Assembly (NCBI GenBank): GCA_025558095.1
Contig: JAIVFI010000026.1
Location: 248,001-312,000, forward strand
Reading direction: 5' to 3'
Origin: Hyaloraphidium curvatum
Lineage: Eukaryota > Monoblepharomycota > Hyaloraphidiomycetes > Hyaloraphidiales > Hyaloraphidiaceae
DNA: 64,000 bases
The translations under genes and the position numbers were made by a program. Position 1 is the stretch's first letter. The number at the start of each line of letters is the position of its first letter. Below, in pieces: positions 13,140 through 42,960 of this stretch. The notes below the pieces were generated by a model. That model saw only the letters and a list, made by a program, of their open reading frames with translations. It was not told the DNA's origin and did not search any database.

Positions 13140-16100
13140 TCACCCGTTGATCGCGGCGGAGATCTTGTCTGAGGTATACGGCACGCTGATGTGCCTGAAT
13201 TCCTTGATGCCCTTGTCCGCGAGCGCGCTCTGCACGCACTGTTGCACTGCAGAGGTGACCGCGGGCGCCACGCAAAGCGGCGGCTCGCCGCTGGCCTTGG
13301 ACGAGAGCACGCCGCGGTGGAAGTTGCCCTGGAGCAACGTGACGTTGAACTCGCGGGGTGCGTTGGCCGCGATCGGGATCTTGTACTGGAAAACCAAATC
13401 GAGGTAAGCAGACGGATGGTTTGGAATTGACTCAACAACCCACCTCCCACGTCGTGCCCTTACCCCTGAGCTCCCCCGTGTCCTTGTCCATCCCGGCATC
13501 TTCCTGCAGCATGTATCCGAGGCCCATCGTGAGCGCCCCCTCCACCTGGCCAATATCGATGGCGGTGTTGAGGGACCTCGCGGCGTCGTACTCGACGTCG
13601 AAGCGGAGCAGCGTCGTCTCGCCCGTGAGCACGTCGACCTCGACCTCCGCGCCGCCAGCCACCCAAATGGAGTAGCTCGTTACGCCCCGCACCCCGTTGG
13701 TGTTGCCGACGGCCGAAAGGGGCACGCTCTTCATCTCCGCGGCCTTGATGACGGCCTTCCAGCCCGCCTCGGCCACGTCGGCAGGCGACGCGCTCTGGTC
13801 GCCCTCCTTGGCCGCGGCCGTGGCGCCGTCGATGATCTTGGCGACCTCCTCGGGGCCTCCCAGCGCTGCGATGATCTTGTCGACCAGGATCGTGCACCCG
13901 TCGATGACGGCCATCACCGCGCCTTCGGAGCCCATGCTGCCGCCCGTGAACATGTGGAACGGGATGATGCTCGTGTCGTTCCCGGTCGTGCGGATGCGGG
14001 AGAAAGGCACGTGCACGGTGCTCTTGGCCGACACTTTGGTCGCGATCGCCTGCAGCTGCATGGCGGCGCCCTGCTGGATCTTGGTCACGAGCCCCTGCCC
14101 CATCTCGGTGCCCGTGTAATGTATGACGACAGAGCCGTCGCCGTAGATGTTGACGAGGGCGTCGGACCGCAGCGGGGTGACGAAGTAACGGAAGGGCACG
14201 ACGGCGGCCCCGCGCTTGACCGCCTTGTGCTCCTTGTTGAACGCCTCGGTGGCCGCGATCCTGTCGCGCCATCCCTTGCCGTCCATCAGGTTCCCGTACA
14301 GCTTCGGCAGCGTGAACGCCGGGCCCTCCTCCACGCCCTCGGGAATGCTGATCCCGAGCGGTCCCTCGATCCCAAGCGGCAGCTTGAGCGTCTCGGCCGT
14401 GTACAGGTTCGCGTCCCGGATCTTCTGCGAGTGCACGCCGAGCTCGTGGGCCACGCGGTCGACTGCGACCTCTGTGAACCAGCACCCCTCGATCTCGCCC
14501 GGCCCCCGCATGGTGGTCCGCGAAGAGACGTTGGTGCGGGCCACGCGCACGTCGCAGCGGTAGTTGGCCACATCGTAGCACGTGAAGTGGGTCTTGATGA
14601 GCGTCGGCGCCTGGAAGAACGACAGGTCGAGCTTGTATCCCGCAAGGGCGGTGATCTTGAGGTCCGCGCCGAGGATCTTGCCGGTCTTGCCGTCGAACCA
14701 CACCTTGGCCTTCTCCAGGCACTCCTCCCTCCCTCCCTGCATCATGCTGTCCGTCCCGCGGTCCACCACCAGCTTGACGGGCCGCCGCAGGATCGACGCC
14801 GCGAGCGCGACGGTGACGGCCTGCTCCGTGCCCAGCTTGGCCCCGAAGCTGCCCCCCAGCCTCGTCTGCGTGGCCTGGATGTCCGACTCGGGCCTGTTGA
14901 GCACGTACGCGGCCGTCTTGCCGACCATGGTGATCATCTGGATCTGCGAGTGTATGACGATCTTGCCCGCCTCCTCGTAGGCCAGCGCCGACTGCGGCTC
15001 CAGGTACCAGTGCAGCTGCGTCGCCATCTCGGTCGCGTACTCGACGCTCCTCACGTCCCCGCCCGCCGCCGACAGGGCGTCCACGTCGCCGCGCGCCATG
15101 GCCTTGGCCGCGAACATGCCGAGGTCCGTGGCCTCCTTGGGCGCGGCCTCGACGTCGGGGAAGCCGACAAAGACCTTGGAGCGGTCGTCCGGGGTCCACG
15201 CGACGGCGTTCTTCGCGATCCATTTGGCGATGGCGTTGGCCCGCGCCTGCGTCTCGGCGCACACGAGGCCGATCGGCTCGCCGACCCAGTTGATGCGGCC
15301 GTCCTTGGCCCAGATCGGGACCAGCGGCAGGGGCAGGCCGATGACGGCGGCGCCCTGCGGGATGTCGAGGTTGAACCTTCCGAGCGCGGCGACGGAATCG
15401 TAAGTGAGGAAGGTCACGAAGCCCGGCTGCTTGGAGGCCCGGATCTTGGCGTGGTCGACCTCGAAGCTGCCCTGCGGGATCGGGCTGTTGACGAAGGCCG
15501 CAAACACCGCGCCGGCGGGGGCGGGCACGTCCGTGGTGTACTGCGCGGTGCCGCAGGTGTGGTGGATGCCGTCCGCGCGCGGGATCGCGCGGCCGACGGG
15601 GCCGAACGAGGCCGCGTCGGGGGCCGTGGGCTCGGCGCCGGGGCGCGGCATGTCGGCGGGTCTGACGAAGGAGATGGTGGATTTCGGCACGGGCCTCTGC
15701 GGGCCGATGGCGGCCTTGGCGAGGGCGGCGGCGTCCTTCGCGACGTCGGTGAAGGCCTTGAGGGTGAAGGCTTTCACGAGCGCCGCGCGGTGCGAGTTCT
15801 TGTAGCTGCCTTCGATCTTGACCGCTGCGGCCGCGACCTGGGCCGCCCACTCCGCCGTCGGGTTCCCGAGCGCGCCGTCGGCGTCGGTCGGCGGCGACAC
15901 GGGCTTGCCCTTGACGCCGTCAAAGGTGACGACCTGCGGGGCGTTGCGCCCGGGCACGTCCGTGACGCCGACGTTGCCGAACGCGGCCGTCGCGGACGCG
16001 ATCTTGCCGTCCTCGAGCTCGAAGAAGAAGGACGAGTTGACGATGGCGTGGGCGTTGACGCAGCGGATGGCCGTGCGGTGGTTGATGAGCCGGTGCGAGC

Positions 16101-17462
16101 CCTTGCCAACCTCGAACGAGACCGAGGTGAGGACATTGTACTCGAGGGGCGCTGTCGGCGAGGCGACGTAGGTCGACAGTGGCTCGGACTTCTCGGCCGC
16201 CTTCCCGTCGGTGCCGATGTGGGTGAAGTGGGCGACGGCGCCCAGCGCGACGAGGGGGGTGACGGTGTCGCTGCACGCCGAGCAATGAGCCCTTGCGAAC
16301 AAGCGCCGGGAACGATCTTCTGGCATACCTGGCGAACCCATTCTCCTTGGCCATGGTGATGTTGCCAGCAATGCTGGCCACGTGGCGCACCTGCTCGTTG
16401 GCGACCTTGTTGAGCGTGCGCGCGAGCGCGCTGAGCACCTGGCGCTGGCTCTTTTCGGCCTCGTCTGCGCTGCCCTCGGCTGGCGCGGCGTCGTGCAGCT
16501 TCTTGATGAGCTCCGAGATGCTGAGCGTGGGCCCGAAGGAGACCTTGAGGCCGCCATCTTCCTTGGACGCGCTGAACGTCTTGAAGTCAGGGATCCCGCT
16601 GATGTCTGCGACCGCCAGGGCGGTGGGCAGGTCGTCCTTGTAGACCCCTGCCGAGGTCTGCGAGCACACCACGCGCACGAAGTCCTGCGCCCGGCCCGCC
16701 GACTTGGCCAGCAGCTCAAACAGCTGCGCCGGGGTCGACACGCGGTGGTACGTGAGCGTGGACGACTTGAAGGTGGCCCCGGCGTCCGCCGGGGCGTCGC
16801 CGCGGAACTCGGCGGGGAAGGCCTTCTCGACGACCGACTGCACGTAGGCGCCCAGCGGCACGGGGTTCTCGAGCACCTTGTCTTCGGCGCCGTCGCAGAT
16901 GGCGATCGCGTCGCGCACGTCCGAGTCAGAGGCGAACGAGAGCGCGGATCTACGAAATCGCGTCAGATGACACACAATCAGGGGCCCGCGAGGCAACCCA
17001 CGCGACGATGGGGCGGTATCCCGTGCAGCGGCACAGGTTCCCGTCCAGCCTGTCCTCGATGTCGGCCATCTTGGCCCCGGGGTCCTCGAGGAACACGCCC
17101 GACACCTGAACGGTCCACCCGGGCGTGCAGAAGCCGCACTGCGACGCGTTGAGGTCGGCCATCCGGCGCTGCAGCGGCGACGGCTCGCGCGGGGAGCCGA
17201 GGCCCTCGACGGTGACGACCGAACAGCGGTGCAGCGTGGCGACCTTGCGGAGGCACGCGTTGGCGGTGACGCTCACGACGCGGCCGCCGTCGGCGTCCCA
17301 TCTGCTGAGCAGCACGGTGCACGCGCCGCAGCCGCCCTCGCCGCAGCCGACCTTCGTGCCGGTCAGCCCGGCCGTCTCGCGGAGGAACGCCGAGAGCGAC
17401 ACGGACGGGTCGGCGGAGGGCAGCTTGACCACCTTGCCGTTGACAGCGAACACGAGCGCCAT
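13140..17462 (-). CDS. molybdo-flavoenzyme, xanthine dehydrogenase/aldehyde oxidase family (aldehyde-oxidase-like)
   Basis: Model: complement(join(13140..13385, 13444..16270, 16329..16949, 17002..17462)), 1384 aa, full length for the family. Introns are 58, 58 and 52 nt. Domains in order: plant-type [2Fe-2S] with Cys40/45/48 (GCGEGGCGAC); second [2Fe-2S] with QCGFC and GNLCRCTGYRPI; FAD domain with the VVCSQTSAGVYKDD loop; Moco domains with GGSFGAK, MRGPGE, GTEMGQG and the catalytic Glu1337 in ASGEPPL. Bovine XDH has Glu after GGGFGGK; here that position is Leu (GAKLGTE), and the FAD loop resembles plant aldehyde oxidases, so aldehyde oxidation seems more likely than purine oxidation. Cytosolic or peroxisomal; no clear PTS1 (ends AAING). 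Confidence 0.9.
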
Positions 17463-17932
17463 TTCAGCGGGCCGCGGTGGGCGGCGCCGGGGTGGCGCGG
17501 AGAGACGGGAGAGGTGGCAAGGAGGCCGGCGACGGCGGTGTTGGAGGGTGGCGAGGAGGGGAGACAAAGGAGTTTGGAAGATTCGGTGGAAGGGACGGGC
17601 GGCTTACGTCACAAGCTGGGTTTGGATTCTCCCGCGGCGACGATCCTTCGGTAAATCATGCTCATCAGGAGGCCTCTGCCTTTGCTGACCTCTCTTAAAC
17701 GCGATGGCCGCTGCCGAAGAGCGTGGTTGGGTCCCTCGTCGCACGCCATACGCTCGAACCAGACAGAGATCTTGCCGGTCCGGGACCTGGCACCGCGACC
17801 GATCGCCCGACGTCCGATGAGATAATGAATGGATGATGACAAGACAGAGTATGAGTTACATAAGAATGTGTCAGCTGCACGCAAGCCCCGCGCGCGATGT
17901 GCTGCACAATCCCGCAACGCAAAGCCTCCGCA
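17463..17932. other. intergenic between oxidase start and U1 end
   Basis: Includes the presumed promoter of the molybdo-flavoenzyme and the 3' region of the first ubiquitin-like gene. No gene-like frame recognised. Confidence 0.4.
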
Positions 17933-19431
17933 TCAACCGCGCCTGGCCCGCTTCGGGCGCGAAGCAGATCCTCCAGCTCCCCTACCGACGGCATCCGCTT
18001 CTTCCGCCTTGTCCTGGACGCGCTTGCTCCTCCTAGGTCCTGCCGCGCCGTCCTCCTCGCCGGCGCCTTCCCCGAGATCGGCCAGCGCCGCCTCGGCCTC
18101 GGCGAGCATCCTGAGCGCCTCCTCGCGCTTCCTGAGCGCGGCGGCCCGAGCCGTTCCTCCCAACATGGCGACGCGGGCCTTCTCCAGGAGGAGCGAGACG
18201 GGGTCGGCCTCGCTGAGCTCAAAGGAGTGCTTGGTGCCGCCGCAGAAGACCTCCAGGATCCCGTGGTGAGGCACCCCGGCGGGCTCGTATCCGCGCATGC
18301 CCGAGGATTCGTGCATCATACCCCCGCGGAGTCGCAGGATGAGGTGCAAGACGCAACTTTGCTGAATGCTGTAGTCTCCAATCGTAACGCCGTCTTCCAG
18401 CTGCTGCCCGTCGAATACGAGGCGCTGCTGGTCAGGCGGAATGCCCTCTTTCTCTTGGATCTTTGTCTGAGCGGGAAGGAAGCTAGTCGGCTCCCCATGA
18501 ACACAAAATGCTGATATGGCGAACACACCTTCAGGTCTTTGATCGTGTCCATGGACTCGACTTTCAAGAGGATGATTTTGCCCGTCAGTGTTTTGACCAA
18601 GATCTCCATGCTCTTGCTCGCAAGGGTCTCGGTCGTGCCGCGGGACTGCGGCCGGAGCACAAGGCGCAAAGTCGAGTTCTGCTGAACGTTGTAGTCGGCG
18701 AGCGTGCGTTGGTCCTCGAGCTGCTTGCCCCCGAAGCACAGGAGCTGCTGATCGGGCATAATGCCCTCTTCGTCCTGGATGAGGCTCTGGTGGAAGGTGA
18801 GTCGTCATCGGTTGGGAATGAAGTTGGCCATACCTTGACCCGTCCAATCGTATCGCTGGTCCAGGGGCGGATCTTCACCACCTTGCCGTTAAGGCTCCTG
18901 ACGAGGAGATTGATTTGCTGCGGGCTAGTACGGACACCCTGCGGGGGCTCGTGATGCAAAATCTCCTCAAGCTCAATCTCCAGAGGGGAGTCCATCGCGG
19001 CGGCAACGTCGAGGAAGTCCTGGGACACGTCCGAGACGAAAAGCCGATGCGCTTTGGCAGTCAGGCTTCGCACAATGTGCGTAGCTCCTTTGCCGTCCTC
19101 GACGACCTTGAGGGAGCGGAACTCAATTCAGATCCCGCCAGAGCAAGGCCTCCGAGCGACCCACCTCCAGCTTCCCGCCGCAGCGGTCCGGGTACAGTAT
19201 CTCCCCATCCCGAGCCTTCAGGTACGTCCCAAGCGGCTTGCCCGGGTCGAGCAGCAGGAATTTGGTGTAGATCCTAAGTGGTTGCCGGCCGCAGACGGCG
19301 ACCTCGGGGTGCGCCTTGCGGAAGGCCTCGACGGCCGATGCCGCCACATCCTCGACCGCGGCCGGGCGGCGGACATCCGTGGTCACGGGCTTGCGCCGCC
19401 CGCAGCGGACCACGAGCTTCGCGGCTCCCAT
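17933..19431 (-). CDS. tandem ubiquitin-like family protein U1 (two Ubl folds)
   Basis: Model: complement(join(17933..18466, 18529..18786, 18834..19106, 19165..19431)), 443 aa; introns 58, 47 and 62 nt. Order: N-terminal domain (KLVVRCG...[15 protein letters not shown]); DFLD helix region; first Ubl ([15 protein letters not shown]...[24 protein letters not shown], ending LVLRPQSRG without diglycine); second, near-canonical Ubl ([19 protein letters not shown]...[19 protein letters not shown], ending LRLRGG); then [15 protein letters not shown], a Lys/Glu-rich helix ([18 protein letters not shown]) and a basic tail RPKRARRG resembling a nuclear signal. Introns fall before the 'IQ-x-x-EGI' strand in both Ubl folds. 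Paralogous to U2 and U3. Role unknown; a ubiquitin-like modifier precursor or a UBL-domain scaffold. Confidence 0.8.
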
Positions 19432-19747
19432 CGTGGGCAGAGAGCTCGGTTCTGACTGCTGTCTCAACTGGGACGATGGGCCCTTCTCAGCAGGCCGAGC
19501 TCCTGATGGCAAATCAATCGCGATTGAAACCAGCAATCCATCAAAATGAATCAGTCAACGTGATGAAGCTACATGAGAAGATCATCTGAACTTGAGAAAG
19601 AAGTAAGACCGAGTTGTACCGAGCCGAAGTCCGTGCCGATCGACCACCGCGTCCGAGCCCTCCCAAAGTCCTACCATCATCCGCGCCTGGCCCGCTTCTT
19701 TCGCGACGAGGATCCTCCAGCTTCGCGGCCGCCCGCCTCGGCCTTCT

Positions 19748-21246
19748 CTACCTTCTCCCGGATGCGCTCGCTCCTCCGCGGCCCCTCGATGCCCTCCTCG
19801 TCGGTGCCTCCTTCCTCCAGACCCGCAAGGGCGGCCCGGCTTCGGCGAGCATCTTCAGGGCCTCCTCACGCTTCTTGAGGGCAGCGCTCCGTACGACTGT
19901 GCGGTCATCTCCCCTCACGGCATCCCGAGCCTTCTTCAGGAGAAGCGAAACCGGATCGGCCTCGCTGATCTCCAACTGGTGCTTTGTGCCGTAGCAGTCG
20001 ATCTCCAGCTTTGCGCTAGGGGCAGGTCCGACGGGCTCGTAGCCGCGCATGCCCGAGGACTCGTGCATCATACCGAGCCGCAAAACGAGGTGCAGCGTGG
20101 ATTCGTTCTTGATCTGGGAATCGGCGAGCAAGCAATCATCTTTGAGCTGCACGCCGTTGAAGATAAGGCGCTGCTGATCTACGGGGATGCCCTCGACCTT
20201 CTGGATTAGAATCTGGTGGCGAATGAGGGTCCGTCACGGGAAACGGTACGCGGACGGAACCTTGGCTTCACGGGCGGTGGCCTTGGATGAAGGGCAGATC
20301 GTGATTGTCTTTCCGGTAAGGGTCTTCACGAAGAGTTGGATCTCGCCCTTGTCGACGTGGAGAACGGTCGATGTGGTGAGGCCGCACTCGCTCAATGTCT
20401 TGTTCGAGATTCCGTGGAATGAAAGCTCCCCCTTCTCCGAATCCGAAGCCTTGAACAAGATGTTTTGAAATGAGCCCCCTTTGGCCGCTTCAATCAGAGT
20501 TGATTTCGACGAAGTAAAGCAGCAACTTGCCATTCAGCTCCTCCACCAGCCTGGCCACCTCGCTGACCAGTAAGTTCGCTGAAACAGTGAGCTTCTCCGT
20601 CCGGCCACCTGTGGAATCAAGTTGAGGAGTGAGCAAACTCTCGCTTTTGCATCCCGGCAGACACTCACGAGGGAACTCGACAGTCACGGAGAAGGCATCT
20701 TCCTCGGAGATCTTCCCCCTGATCACGTCGCAGACCCGCCGTCGGCAATCTGCCTCCCTCTCGACGACGTGGATTTGCTCCAGCTTCAGCTCCAGTGGAG
20801 CGCCCAGAACCGCGGCGGCGTCAAGGAAATCCTGGGTCAAATTTGAAACCAACATCGCGTTCCCCGTGTCGAGCACGCTCCGGATGATATGGTAGGCACC
20901 CTTAGCGTCCGAAATGAGCTTGAACGAGGCTCCCGCCGTGAGTCGTGGCGCGGACACGCCCTCGGACGCGTCCCACCTTCAGTTCTCCTCGAGAATGGTC
21001 CGGGAACTCCATTCCACCCTCCTGCGCCGTCATGTACGTCCCCAACGGCTTTGCAGGGTCGAGGAGCAGGAACTTGGCCGACAGTTGGGGCAGGAGGGGC
21101 TCTTGGAAAAGCACGCCGGGATTCGCGTTTCGGAAGGCCTCCACGGCGGACGCGGCCACGTCGGCGACCGGCGACGTGCCCACGATATCAACAGAGACGG
21201 GCGGGAGCGCCCCGCACTTGACCAGGAGCTTCACGGCGCCCGTCAT
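19748..21246 (-). CDS. tandem ubiquitin-like family protein U2 (diglycine lost, one GC-AG intron)
   Basis: Model: complement(join(19748..20212, 20261..20478, 20531..20608, 20669..20918, 20977..21246)), 426 aa; introns 48, 52, 60 and 58 nt. The 52-nt intron starts GCAAGT, a typical GC-AG donor, at the same place as a GT donor in U3. N-terminal domain (KLLVKCGA...[15 protein letters not shown]), DFLD region, divergent first Ubl ([15 protein letters not shown]...[16 protein letters not shown]), second Ubl ([15 protein letters not shown]...[16 protein letters not shown]) ending LVLRLG. The RG of LRLRGG is missing before [13 protein letters not shown]. After LKMLAEAG the frame departs from U1/U3, but the -1 frame still encodes an acidic helix and basic KKRARRG-type tail ending near 19677, so a recent one-base indel is likely. 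Confidence 0.75.
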
Positions 21247-21376
21247 TGTGGACCGCGGGGCTCGATGGAGTTGGTGGGACGCGTGCCCCGGCCCCCAATC
21301 GAACGCCGACTTCGCACGGCCAAAGATTTCAAAGTACAAAGGAAAGAGCCCGATCTGCATCCAAAAAAAATCCTCC

Positions 21377-22935
21377 TTAAGACCTCCTCGCCCGCTTCCT
21401 GGGCTCGGCATCGCGATCCCGCCCTCCGTCGCCCGCCCCGACCTTGACGCTCTTCTCCCGGATCCGCTTGCTCCTCCGCACCCCGTCGCTCTTGGCCTCC
21501 TCCTCGATCTCCGCGAGAGCCTCCTCCGCGGCCTTGAGCATCGCCAACGCCTCCTCGCGCTTCTTGAGGGCCTCCTCGCGCGCGACGCCCCGGGCCGCTT
21601 CCTCGGCGCGCTTGATGACGAGCGAAACCGGGTCGTCCAGGCCGAACTTGAAGCTCCGGACCACGCCATCGCCGATCTCGATCTCCAGGGTTCCCTTGGG
21701 CGCCGAACCCGAGGGCTGGTAGCCGCGCATGCCGGAGGAGACGTGGAGCATCCCGCCCCGGAGGCGCAGGACTAGGTGGATGGTGGATTCGATGCGCACG
21801 TCGTAATCCGCGAGCGCGCGTCCATCCTCGAACTGCCTGCCAGCGAAGATGAGGCGCTGCTGGTCGGAAGGGATGCCTTCCTTGTCCAGGATCTTGGTCT
21901 GTGCAATCAAACGGCAGCCAATACTCAGGACGCATGACTGAGTCGATCACGGCCAGCCGCTTCTTACCTTCAGCTCGTCGATTGTAAGGGACGGTCTGGC
22001 TTCAATCGTAATCGTCTTTCCGGTCAAGGTCTTGACGAAGATCTGGTAGTTCTGCAACGTGTCCACTCGCACAATAGTGGAGGCCGAGATTCCGGCATCC
22101 CCCAAAGTCGAGCTACCGTAATGCATTCTGTCGGTCAGTTCCGGCCCGTCGAACCAAATGGCGCTGGGGAATTGACCTTCATTCCGATCAGTGAGGCACG
22201 AAGTGAAAGCGAGTGCACCAACTCACCACTTAGGTTCTCAACGAGAGCGTAGACGTCCTTGAGCAGAAGGTTCGGAGACACCAGCAGAATCCGCTCCTCG
22301 GACCACGAGGGTCTCCTTCCGTAGCCCACGTCCTCGCCGAGGGTGACGCGTAGCGGGAAGGAGTCCGCCAGCACGAGCTTCTTCTTGATATCGGTGCACT
22401 GCCGCCTGATTCTGACGCTCCGGGGCTCAGGCTGCGTGCGTGGAACGTTGGGAATGTCGTAAACCTTCTCGAGCCGAAGCTCAAGGGGCATTCCAAGCGC
22501 GACAGAGGCATTCATGAGCCCGGCCGAGATGTTCTCCACAATAATGTTGTGCCAGTCGCGGTCCAAGAGCATTACCAGGTGTACGCTGTCGCCGTCTCCC
22601 GTGACCAGCTTGAAAATGTCAAAAGCAGGCAAGCTCCGCGATTAAGGGACGCCCACCTTGAGCGAACCAGAGAAGCCACCAGCCAGCTTGTCGATGGGCA
22701 CCGTTGGGCTTCCGCCCGCCGCGTAGAAGTACGAACCCAGCGGCTTGATGGGGTCGAGGTAGAGGAACGGGGCGTGCACGGCCGTGGGCGGATCCCGAAG
22801 AGCGATGCCGGGGAATGCGCGGCGGAAGGCCTGGACGGCGGCTTCCACCACCTCCTTCGCCGAACCTCGTTTTCCAATAGGAAAGGTGAACTTCGGCTCC
22901 CCATCGAGCAGCAACTGCAGCTTCGTGGCCGCCAT
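21377..22935 (-). CDS. tandem ubiquitin-like family protein U3 (two Ubl folds)
   Basis: Model: complement(join(21377..21898, 21968..22176, 22227..22608, 22657..22935)), 463 aa; introns 69, 50 and 48 nt. It repeats the U1/U2 plan: N-terminal domain ([14 protein letters not shown]...[14 protein letters not shown]), middle region with more residues than U1, divergent first Ubl ([18 protein letters not shown]...[16 protein letters not shown]), canonical second Ubl ([20 protein letters not shown]...[19 protein letters not shown]) ending LRLRGG, then [15 protein letters not shown], a long coiled-coil-like helix ([20 protein letters not shown]) and a Lys/Arg tail EPRKRARRS. The splice acceptor after the N-terminal domain is TTCAAG or CTCAAG in all three paralogs, which supports these models. 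Confidence 0.8.
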
Positions 22936-23050: not shown

Positions 23051-24796
23051 ATGCGCTCGCGCAGCGCCCGCGCCATGTTTCTCTGCGCGGCGCTCTGGGC
23101 GGCGGCGGCCGTCGGCGACTGCGCGCAGTTTGCGGTGCCCGCTGCGCTCCACCCGATTCGGGACGCCGCCGGCGACGCCGGCTGCGACGCGCTGGACCTG
23201 ATCGTCGACGTGGTGACCGTCACGCGCACGACAACCGTGTGGCCGTCGCCGTTGCCCGCCAGCAGGCCCGCCCGGCCGACCGAGGCATCGGCCTGGTGGC
23301 CCCTGTTTGGCGGCCGACCTGTCAACCCGGAAGCGGGCGAATCTGAGCACCACGAGACCATCGATGGCCCTGATGAGCTCTATGAGGACGATTCCGAACA
23401 GGACTGGGCCGGCGACGCGCTACTGTCGGCATCTGTTAATGGCTCGGCCGACCACCACCTCCTCGAACGGACATGGTGAGTTGCTCGCCTTTTTTCGACG
23501 CGATTTGCCTGAATTCTCATTGTTCGACTCCCCTGCAGGTGCAAGCGCACCAATGGCTGCGGAATAGTCTGCGACGCTTCCGGCTACCGCCGCCGGCGCC
23601 GCACGAACGGCGGCGGCACGTGCTGCAGCCAGCGCACCAGCTCCACCACGATCACCAGCACCTCCGAGATCCGCACCACATCCACCGAGGTCACCGTGAT
23701 CACCTTCACTTCTACCTCGGTCGAGGTAACCTTCGAGGTCCAGGTCACCCTGACCACGGGCCTGGACCAGCCGACGGGCTCCATCTGCGTGCCCGTGACG
23801 GACGTGTACACGCCGGGGACCACGACCTTCACCGACTGCCCGACACCCGGGACGCAGACCATGTGCCTGGTGCAGGCCACGCAGACGTCGGTCTCGGACA
23901 GCTGCAGCGTGGCTGCTACGGTGTCGTCCTGCTGGAATCCCCGTTCCAGCGGCGACGGGCCCGTGTTCTTTACCACGACGACCTTGACGTCGGTGACGGC
24001 AACGGTCACGACGGTGGTTTCCCAGACCAACTCGGCCGTCGTCACCGTTACGGTTGGTTGATGGGGACATTGTCTCGTTTGGTTGCTGACCACCTTGGCT
24101 TGATCCAGTGCACTCCCACGACGCGAACCAACACCGCCACCATATCCGCCACGCCTCGCACATCCACATCCGTCACCACCCGGACGGATCTTACCGTGTG
24201 TTTTGCCCTTGCTTCCCCCATCATTGATCGTTTGACGTTCGCTCCATCACCAGTCGACGACTCTGATCTCCACGAGCACCGGGCCGACCTCCACCTCCCA
24301 GAGCTCGTCAACTTCCGTTAGCCAGACGAGCTCGACGTCCCAGAGCTCCACCACCAGCATCTCCCAGACCTCCTCGACCTCGGTCACCCCGAGCACCTCG
24401 ACCTCGCAGACCTCGAGCACCAGCCAGTCTGCGACCAGCTCCACCTCGCAGACATCCTCGACCTCCGTCACCCCGACGAGCTCCACCACCCAGAGCTCGA
24501 GCACCAGCGTTTCGCAGACCAGCTCGACCCCGCAGACGTCGACCAGCTCGACCCCGCAGACGTCGACGACCAGCCTCTCCGCAACGAGCTCGGCGTCCGC
24601 GACGCGGACCACGAGCAGCCTCTCCGCGACGGCCTCGCAGACCGCCACGACGAGCTCAGCGTCGCAGACGAGCAGCACCTCGGCGAGCGAGACCAGCTCG
24701 ACGTCCGCGACGAGCTCCACGTCGGAGAGCAGGACGAGCTCGACGTCCCTGACGAGCTCGACGTCTGTGACGCGGAGCTCCACGACGACGACGTGA
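23051..24796 (+). CDS. secreted or surface Ser/Thr-rich mucin-like protein
   Basis: Model: join(23051..23475, 23539..24052, 24109..24195, 24254..24796), 522 aa; introns 63 (GTGAGT donor), 56 and 58 nt. The N-terminus MRSRSARAMFLCAALWAAAAVGDCAQ is a good signal peptide. A Cys-containing region follows (KRTNGCGIVCDASGY, GTCCSQ, SICVPV, TDCPTPGTQTMCL), framed by Thr/Val repeats. The last 181 residues are almost only Ser/Thr with Gln, Ala and Pro (for example SSTSVSQTSSTSQSS), suggesting heavy O-glycosylation. No GPI tail or membrane helix is seen at the end, so it is probably secreted or wall-bound. U3 is transcribed divergently 115 bp upstream. Confidence 0.75.
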
Positions 24797-42415: not shown

Positions 42416-42960
42416 GCGGCCACAACGGTGGAGGACGTCAAAAAACGTGTTCGCTTGGTGTGCGTTCGATGGTGGAAAAAGGGAAAAGATACAGCACCAC
42501 GTATTCCCGTGTGGTCTCCCACCACAGTACTGACGTGGCTCATACCAGCTTAACTTCAGTGGTCTGACGAGAACTGGTGCTTTCTGGTAGATATGGCCGT
42601 ATCTGAACACCAATGATGCCCGGAGCAATATAACGCCGACGGGCAAAAGGACGACTAGCCTTGGACGCGGCGCGGCCTTGGGAGGCACCGATCCCCCGGC
42701 GGCGCCACGCCGCCACTCCGCCGCACCTTGCCGACTCCCCGTGGGCCATCGCCACTGCCAAACGGCAGCGGCTGTCTATGTTCCTTCCTCCCGACTTGGC
42801 GGCGCCCAATTTGCCAGTCGGACCCTCCTCCCGCGTCGGTGACTCCTTCCCCGCCGGAACCCACTCCTCCGCCGAATCATTCCCATCCCCGGGCGAGTTC
42901 TCCTTCCCCGTCGGCCTCCTCGGTTCCCCGCGCCCGCCGTCGGCCGAGCGGTGCCGCACG
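42416..42960. other. upstream region of adenosine deaminase
   Basis: The deaminase frame is open back to 42661 without conserved residues. That part is Ser/Pro-rich and may be an N-terminal extension or 5' UTR. No other gene recognised. Confidence 0.4.

Follow-up and report, generated by a model that had tools for sequence, protein, structure and literature searches.

Tandem ubiquitin-like genes of Hyaloraphidium curvatum with a conserved peptide after the second ubiquitin-like domain, a possible precursor cleavage junction

Ubiquitin is usually made with its terminal diglycine joined to a further ubiquitin, to a ribosomal protein, or to a short tail, and the ISG15 precursor bears a cleaved tail. 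In the text passages of one paper (PMC6332867), algal ubiquitin fusions, which include hypothetical and integral membrane proteins, are presented as diverse and under-annotated, and fusions of ubiquitin with membrane proteins as particularly frequent among fungal genomes (63 of the 88 species examined). Here we describe a locus of the small aquatic fungus Hyaloraphidium curvatum (Monoblepharomycota) at which ubiquitin-like (Ubl) domains are directly followed by a conserved 13-residue block. The locus lies in a 64,000-nucleotide stretch of contig JAIVFI010000026.1 (the window, to which positions refer). A preliminary description of this DNA had proposed three head-to-tail paralogs at 17933–22935, and this was confirmed: three spliced minus-strand genes, in the order U3, U2, U1, fill this part of the window, and all 463 residues of the spliced U3 model agree with P0020, a protein deposited for H. 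curvatum. The layout of the family is an orphan N-terminal domain, one or two Ubl domains ending in the one referred to as Ubl2, and then the block and a tail. As had been described, Ubl2 ends with LRLRGG in U1 and U3. In U2, its end reads LVLRLG, part of the RGG tail being gone, and the block follows directly.

When the assembly was searched with the part after the diglycine (GG), which gave five matches, and with the N-terminal domain of U2, two diverged extra copies, C42 and C8, were found. The family accordingly has at least five copies, in a genome search that scored the best candidates only. The C42 gene consists of three exons and encodes 352 residues with a single Ubl domain, and its GG and block are intact. 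The GG and block are also intact in C8, whose N-terminal domain was matched with an E-value of 1.5e-5 and contains an in-frame TGA, and whose Ubl2 is shortened. The reading frames of U1, U3 and C42 are open.

The conserved block that had been noted after the second Ubl domain was found in U1, U2 and U3. In the alignment of these three with C42, the block takes the first rank (tied) among 502 stretches of 13 columns, with a mean pairwise identity of 0.85 versus a median of 0.22; the stretches tied with it overlap the block and the GG, and a ubiquitin stretch comes next with 0.82. Between U1 and C42, the proportions of nonsynonymous (pN) and synonymous (pS) differences by the Nei-Gojobori method are 0.063 and 0.82 in the block, rough figures since they are taken over 13 codons, while pN outside the block is 0.318 in Ubl2, 0.515 in the N-terminal domain, and 0.542 in the tail. 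The corresponding block values between U3 and C42 are 0.195 and 0.98. The block of U1 differs from that of C42 by one replacement, with the silent sites near saturation, and it looks purified by selection. For the pairs within the array (U1-U2, U1-U3 and U2-U3), the pN of the block is 0 to 0.13, and its pS is also low, at 0.25 to 0.37 versus 0.58 to 0.74 in Ubl2; the case for constraint on the block therefore rests on C42. In the AlphaFold2 model of U3, residues 336–357, which span the block, have a predicted local distance difference test score (pLDDT) below 50, and the block is followed by a hairpin and a helix that runs into a long helix or coiled coil. The suggestion that the block looks like a maturation or recognition site fits these data, in that it is the most constrained part, begins at the putative scissile bond, and is modelled with low pLDDT; it may be part of such a site.

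The Ubl domains were compared with ubiquitin itself. By Pfam, two ubiquitin stretches are recognized in U1, and one (Ubl2) each in U2 and U3, the first Ubl domain (Ubl1) of the latter two escaping recognition. In the AlphaFold2 model of U3, whose mean pLDDT is only 54, residues 172–335 align with linear di-ubiquitin (root-mean-square deviation of 8.5 over 150 residues), and this model puts U3 Ubl1 in the leading position of a pair that resembles di-ubiquitin. Thus, the claim that each protein has two Ubl folds held for U1 by Pfam and for U3 by modelling, but the first folds are not all equivalent. In local scoring, U1 Ubl1 reaches 215 against ubiquitin and only 19 and 36 against the U2 and U3 Ubl1s, a pair that scores 71 between themselves; to judge from these scores, U1 Ubl1 is a second ubiquitin-derived unit and not the counterpart of the other Ubl1s. 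Another clue is provided by the introns. Ubiquitin units in C43 and in C4, and the first unit of C1, are interrupted behind residue 27 by a phase-0 intron; other units of C43 and C1, and the C10 gene, are without it. All four modelled Ubl2s (U1, U2, U3 and C42), as well as U1 Ubl1, carry an intron at the identical codon boundary. Because Ubl2 shares this site, its descent from an intron-bearing ubiquitin unit is most likely. As for these other ubiquitin loci, C43 (L017, 318000–327000) contains an inverted pair of polyubiquitin genes at about 319.8–321.0 kb (plus strand) and 324.1–325.4 kb (minus strand), with the same units in both as far as the reading frames show. At C1 1057754–1058500 (L019), the GG of a multi-unit polyubiquitin leads into an acidic region and a segment rich in Cys that is AN1-like by eye, VEEAADAKK...CCFADCKQRYVKIIGDCRYC. 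Diverged Ubl frames at C23 (L014) and C34 (L016) end with LRLKGG-L-stop and LALRGG-R-stop, respectively, with one residue past the GG and no block.

The near-invariant ubiquitin moiety expected of ubiquitin precursor genes was not found in the five copies of Ubl2, the identities to ubiquitin being 54/76 in U1, 58/75 in U3, 46/73 in U2, 43/72 in C42, and 40/72 in C8. What is kept and lost has to be read with the provisos that the copies share ancestry, so that the events are not independent, and that the residues were chosen after the sequences had been viewed: R42, R72 and I or V at 44 are kept in all five copies, and L8, H68, V or I at 70, GG, K6 and K11 in four, while K63 is lost in all five and K48 in four, with differing replacements. 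The GG together with R72-L73-R74 is kept in U1, U3, C42 and C8, each of which continues into an in-frame extension, and not in U2. No ubiquitin, S27a or L40 domain was detected by Pfam in the tails after the GG.

From these features, we consider that H. curvatum may have a small family of ubiquitin-derived precursors that are cut after the GG and release a chain-terminating tandem-Ubl tag, a reading to which we give about an even chance. A deubiquitinase would cut after the GG of Ubl2. The N-terminal product would be a tag composed of the N-terminal domain, Ubl1 and Ubl2 with the GG, and the ubiquitin-activating enzyme E1 could still activate it, since R42, R72 and the GG are kept. Once released, the tag would end chains, without extension at K48, K63 or the N-terminus, since K63 is missing from all copies and K48 from most, and a further domain takes up the N-terminus. 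The C-terminal fragment would be a coiled-coil protein, perhaps a nuclear one in view of the basic end of U1 and U3. The block would then lie, flexible and exposed, just beyond the cut, where the processing enzyme or a partner of the released tail would recognize it. If this is true, the released tag would be a natural chain terminator, and if the block steers processing, the ubiquitin system would have in it a maturation signal that is coded in sequence.

Several observations weigh against cleavage as the explanation. The main difficulty is that the block is unchanged in U2, which has no intact GG. The block is therefore not kept for cleavage alone, which favours an uncut protein. U2, damaged in two places, may be in decay; alternatively, docking may be a further role of the block when the protein is left uncut. 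The second damage is a frame shift in the coiled coil: the actual end of U2 is GGASASGRR, and its KRARR-like end sits in another frame, so that the coiled coil with a KRARR-type tail claimed for the array applies, as to the basic end, to U1 and U3. In C8, H68, V70 and L71 are lost from Ubl2, and the in-frame stop is a further point of this kind. Ordinary deubiquitinases are not known to require such a motif. Part of the sameness of the block within the array may be due to gene conversion, and low AlphaFold2 confidence is no proof of disorder. In addition, the ubiquitin frame is absent from the deposited U1 model, P0122 (276 residues), whose first two exons match our model and which is out of this frame from exon 3 onwards. 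Its sequence suggests that intron 2 was ended at an acceptor lying 2 nt beyond ours, and P0122 is probably a gene-model error that masks a two-ubiquitin protein; we prefer our own intron-2 acceptor, since with it the two Ubl domains, block and tail are all read as in the paralogs. The deposited U2 protein, P0123 (426 residues), ends as our U2 model does and is three residues shorter, the difference lying at intron 3.

A fixed scaffold, the other possibility raised in the preliminary description, is in our estimate the less probable one but the strongest of the rivals: the protein would stay whole, the hydrophobic binding patch that Ubl2 retains from ubiquitin would engage ubiquitin receptors, the block would dock a partner, and the GG would be a relic of descent from ubiquitin. 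U2, which retains the block, the Ubl2 patch and the N-terminal domain without an intact GG, agrees with it, and the basic ends of U1 and U3 could suggest a single nuclear protein. A conserved peptide that is predicted to be exposed would suit docking no less than cleavage. Integral Ubl domains, however, generally lose the GG, and here the GG with the R72-R74 tail is kept in four of five copies although these Ubl2s have only 40–58 identities to ubiquitin. Both the precursor and the scaffold are live readings. A single reading for all three copies of the array was not supported, since U2 is without an intact GG.

The block also has look-alikes outside H. curvatum. A protein search was performed with block variants, partly conjectural and containing nothing of ubiquitin except the GG, and gave 65 matches (P0124–P0188), all of which list the ubiquitin family PF00240; the conservation of the block and GG in this set is inflated because the query held both, whereas the presence of ubiquitin is not. 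The organisms given are Rotaria, Adineta and Didymodactylos, which are bdelloid rotifers, and the remaining entries carry no organism. A fungal source of the MxHxTSGR proteins, which had been assumed, was not borne out, the organisms given being rotifers. M-x-H-x-T-S-G-R directly follows the GG in 64 of the 65 proteins, the remaining one reading TSS. In the AlphaFold2 model of a rotifer protein (from 43 sequences), the pLDDT is about 96 for ubiquitin and below 50 for residues 99–110. Two entries without a given organism, P0187 (E-value of 0.2) and P0188 (E-value of 6), read RGG-MYHETSGREGFEP and RGG-MYHETSGRQGFEP, each identical to U1 at 8 of 13 positions, and none of 200000 permutations of the U1 block scored as well against them. 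In both, a helical-looking insert of about 90 residues splits the ubiquitin before the GG-ending half. For the rotifer protein P0124, whose block shares 4 of 13 residues with U1, 873 of 200000 permutations were as good.

With regard to this cross-phylum link only, convergence or chance must be considered, and we regard it as unlikely. A profile of the rotifer block did not recover the H. curvatum sites significantly: with default settings, the five copies ranked 559 or worse among 2031 reading frames, two of them being unreported. With relaxed settings, however, all five came within the top 55 of the 2031 (ranks 2, 16, 32, 34 and 55; E-values of 2.3 to 35). The flanking domains are not alignable by hhalign, which gave a probability of 0.2% for the N-termini of the two sets, but in the tails the block alone aligns, first column to first column (P of 0.008, probability of 5%). 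The composition of the query means that the matches were selected for resemblance; against this stand the permutation result for P0187 and P0188 and the fact that the likeness is in register after the GG of a ubiquitin domain that the query lacked. A common origin of the H. curvatum and rotifer-set blocks is likely on these sequence comparisons, and not proven. A further point against the precursor reading is that, of 64 rotifer-set proteins, 30 retain K48 and 36 retain K63, so that lysine loss is no rule there. It is only tentatively, and with more doubt than for the H. curvatum family itself, that we propose a scattered and so far undescribed precursor class of an early-branching fungus, bdelloid rotifers and others, in which M-x-H-x-[ST]-S-G after the GG would be dedicated to flagging the junction to one particular protease or transfer enzyme, and of which the H. 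curvatum members would release chain-terminating tags with N-terminal cargo. What stands out at this junction is that the peptide is conserved no less than the ubiquitin fold itself, with a similar peptide in the corresponding position in very distant organisms. Two block patterns gave no matches each among viral contigs. Of 21 block-like stretches in bacterial and archaeal genomes, none follows a ubiquitin-like sequence within the 20 residues shown, and several contain stops; they are taken as chance or antisense.

The N-terminal domain was called novel-looking in the preliminary description, and the searches agree with this. Its motif, F-L-x-L-D-P-x-K-P-L-G-x-Y, is encoded in the first exon of each of the three array genes. 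Neither this domain nor the block matched a Pfam family above the cut-off (E-values up to 1 or 10), with weak sub-threshold matches only, and among PDB sequences the domain likewise had only weak matches below the cut-off. A protein search with the core of the N-terminal domain and the part after the GG, which requires shared 5-residue words, gave 4 matches among 271 candidates, all from H. curvatum, and no relative of the domain outside this species; a search with the whole of U3 was dominated by ubiquitin among the best 120 of 7144 matches. In the full-text literature searched, nothing describing this N-terminal domain or the block was found, and none of six block strings was present. The claim of novelty therefore stands for the domain and the block with respect to Pfam and this literature, and has to be restricted for the architecture after the GG by the similar peptide of bdelloid rotifers and other entries. 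AlphaFold2 models the domain of U3 poorly (pLDDT below 50 for residues 45–153 and most of 1–27), and we therefore claim no fold for it. Kinship with the header Ubls of effectors was considered and dropped, as Pfam gave no such family. Within the genome, C22 is a weak match to the U2 domain (E-value of 0.09), C42 is not among the matches of the U2 domain, and the C42 domain matched only itself with E-values up to 10; the kinship of the C42 domain is recognized by the motif and the four-gene alignment only. Finally, it is improbable that the family is lineage-specific debris, in which an orphan gene took up a ubiquitin gene and the duplicated product is now in decay with no defined function: the GG damage and frame shift of U2, the stop and the missing part of Ubl2 in C8, and the restriction of the N-terminal domain to H. 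curvatum in the protein search would suit it, but the open frames of U1, U3 and C42, a pN below pS in Ubl2 in all five pairs compared, and the single replacement between the U1 and C42 blocks at near-saturated silent sites speak against it.

The positions of the genes and their parts are listed in Table 1. U3 and U2 are separated by 130 bp, and the U2 stop and U1 by 316 bp. Elsewhere in the window, a neighbouring gene at 13432–17463 (minus strand) resembles xanthine dehydrogenase/oxidase, as judged by eye from its reading frames. Ser/Thr-rich low-complexity frames, cell-wall-protein-like by eye, lie beside the array at 23513–24796 (plus strand), and a 5S ribosomal RNA gene is found at 42486–42604 (minus strand; Rfam RF00001, 107.1 bits).

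Table 1. Genes of the array and their parts, in window coordinates
Feature	Position	Strand	Description
U1 gene	19431..17933	-	4 exons: 19431-19165, 19106-18834, 18786-18529, 18466-17933; 443 residues
U2 gene	21246..19748	-	5 exons, one intron GC-AG; 429 residues; GG tail damaged, frame shift in coiled coil
U3 gene	22935..21377	-	4 exons: 22935-22657, 22608-22227, 22176-21968, 21898-21377; 463 residues
U1 first exon, N-terminal domain	19165..19431	-	motif present; outside Pfam families above cut-off
U2 first exon, N-terminal domain	20977..21246	-	motif present
U3 first exon, N-terminal domain	22657..22935	-	motif present
U1 diglycine closing Ubl2	18320..18325	-	LRLRGG; from sequence reading
U1 block	18281..18319	-	13 residues after GG; from sequence reading and alignment
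U2 block	20033..20071	-	13 residues after LVLRLG (GG not intact); from sequence reading
U3 block	21713..21751	-	13 residues after LRLRGG; from sequence reading

In comparison with known systems, the H. curvatum proteins share with polyubiquitin, ubiquitin-S27a and ubiquitin-L40 a ubiquitin fold that ends with LRLRGG and continues into an in-frame extension. All three kinds occur in the H. curvatum genome (S27a and L40 being recognized by eye), and several of their units share the residue-27 intron. Unlike these precursors, the present genes have a Ubl2 with only 40–58 identities, losses of K63 and K48, extra N-terminal domains, and an extension that by Pfam is neither ribosomal nor ubiquitin. 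ISG15 and FAT10 resemble U1 (by Pfam) and U3 (by AlphaFold2 and structural alignment) in having a tandem Ubl pair, the second member of which ends with LRLRGG. Among the Foldseek matches of the U3 model was ISG15 (5chw), with an E-value of 6.3e-10 and 22% identity, which is a match of fold only, with no sequence orthology shown. Unlike ISG15 and FAT10, the H. curvatum proteins are fungal, have an orphan N-terminal domain, a long tail, and a Ubl2 close to ubiquitin, and C42 has a single Ubl in place of the pair. Among the integral Ubl proteins of the Rad23/ubiquilin type, in which the Ubl has no GG end, U2 alone would fit, the GG being kept in four of the five copies. The text passages on algal ubiquitin fusions (PMC6332867) mention neither the block after the GG nor such an N-terminal domain. 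In the rotifer-set proteins, the residue after SG is R, as against M in H. curvatum, and the GY of H. curvatum mostly corresponds to DF; many have acidic ends, and their N-terminal domain and tail cannot be aligned with those of H. curvatum. What they have in common with the H. curvatum family is the junction itself, in which the GG of a ubiquitin-like Ubl is directly followed by MxHx[ST]SG. An N-terminal domain, too, is found in the longer ones among the rotifer proteins.

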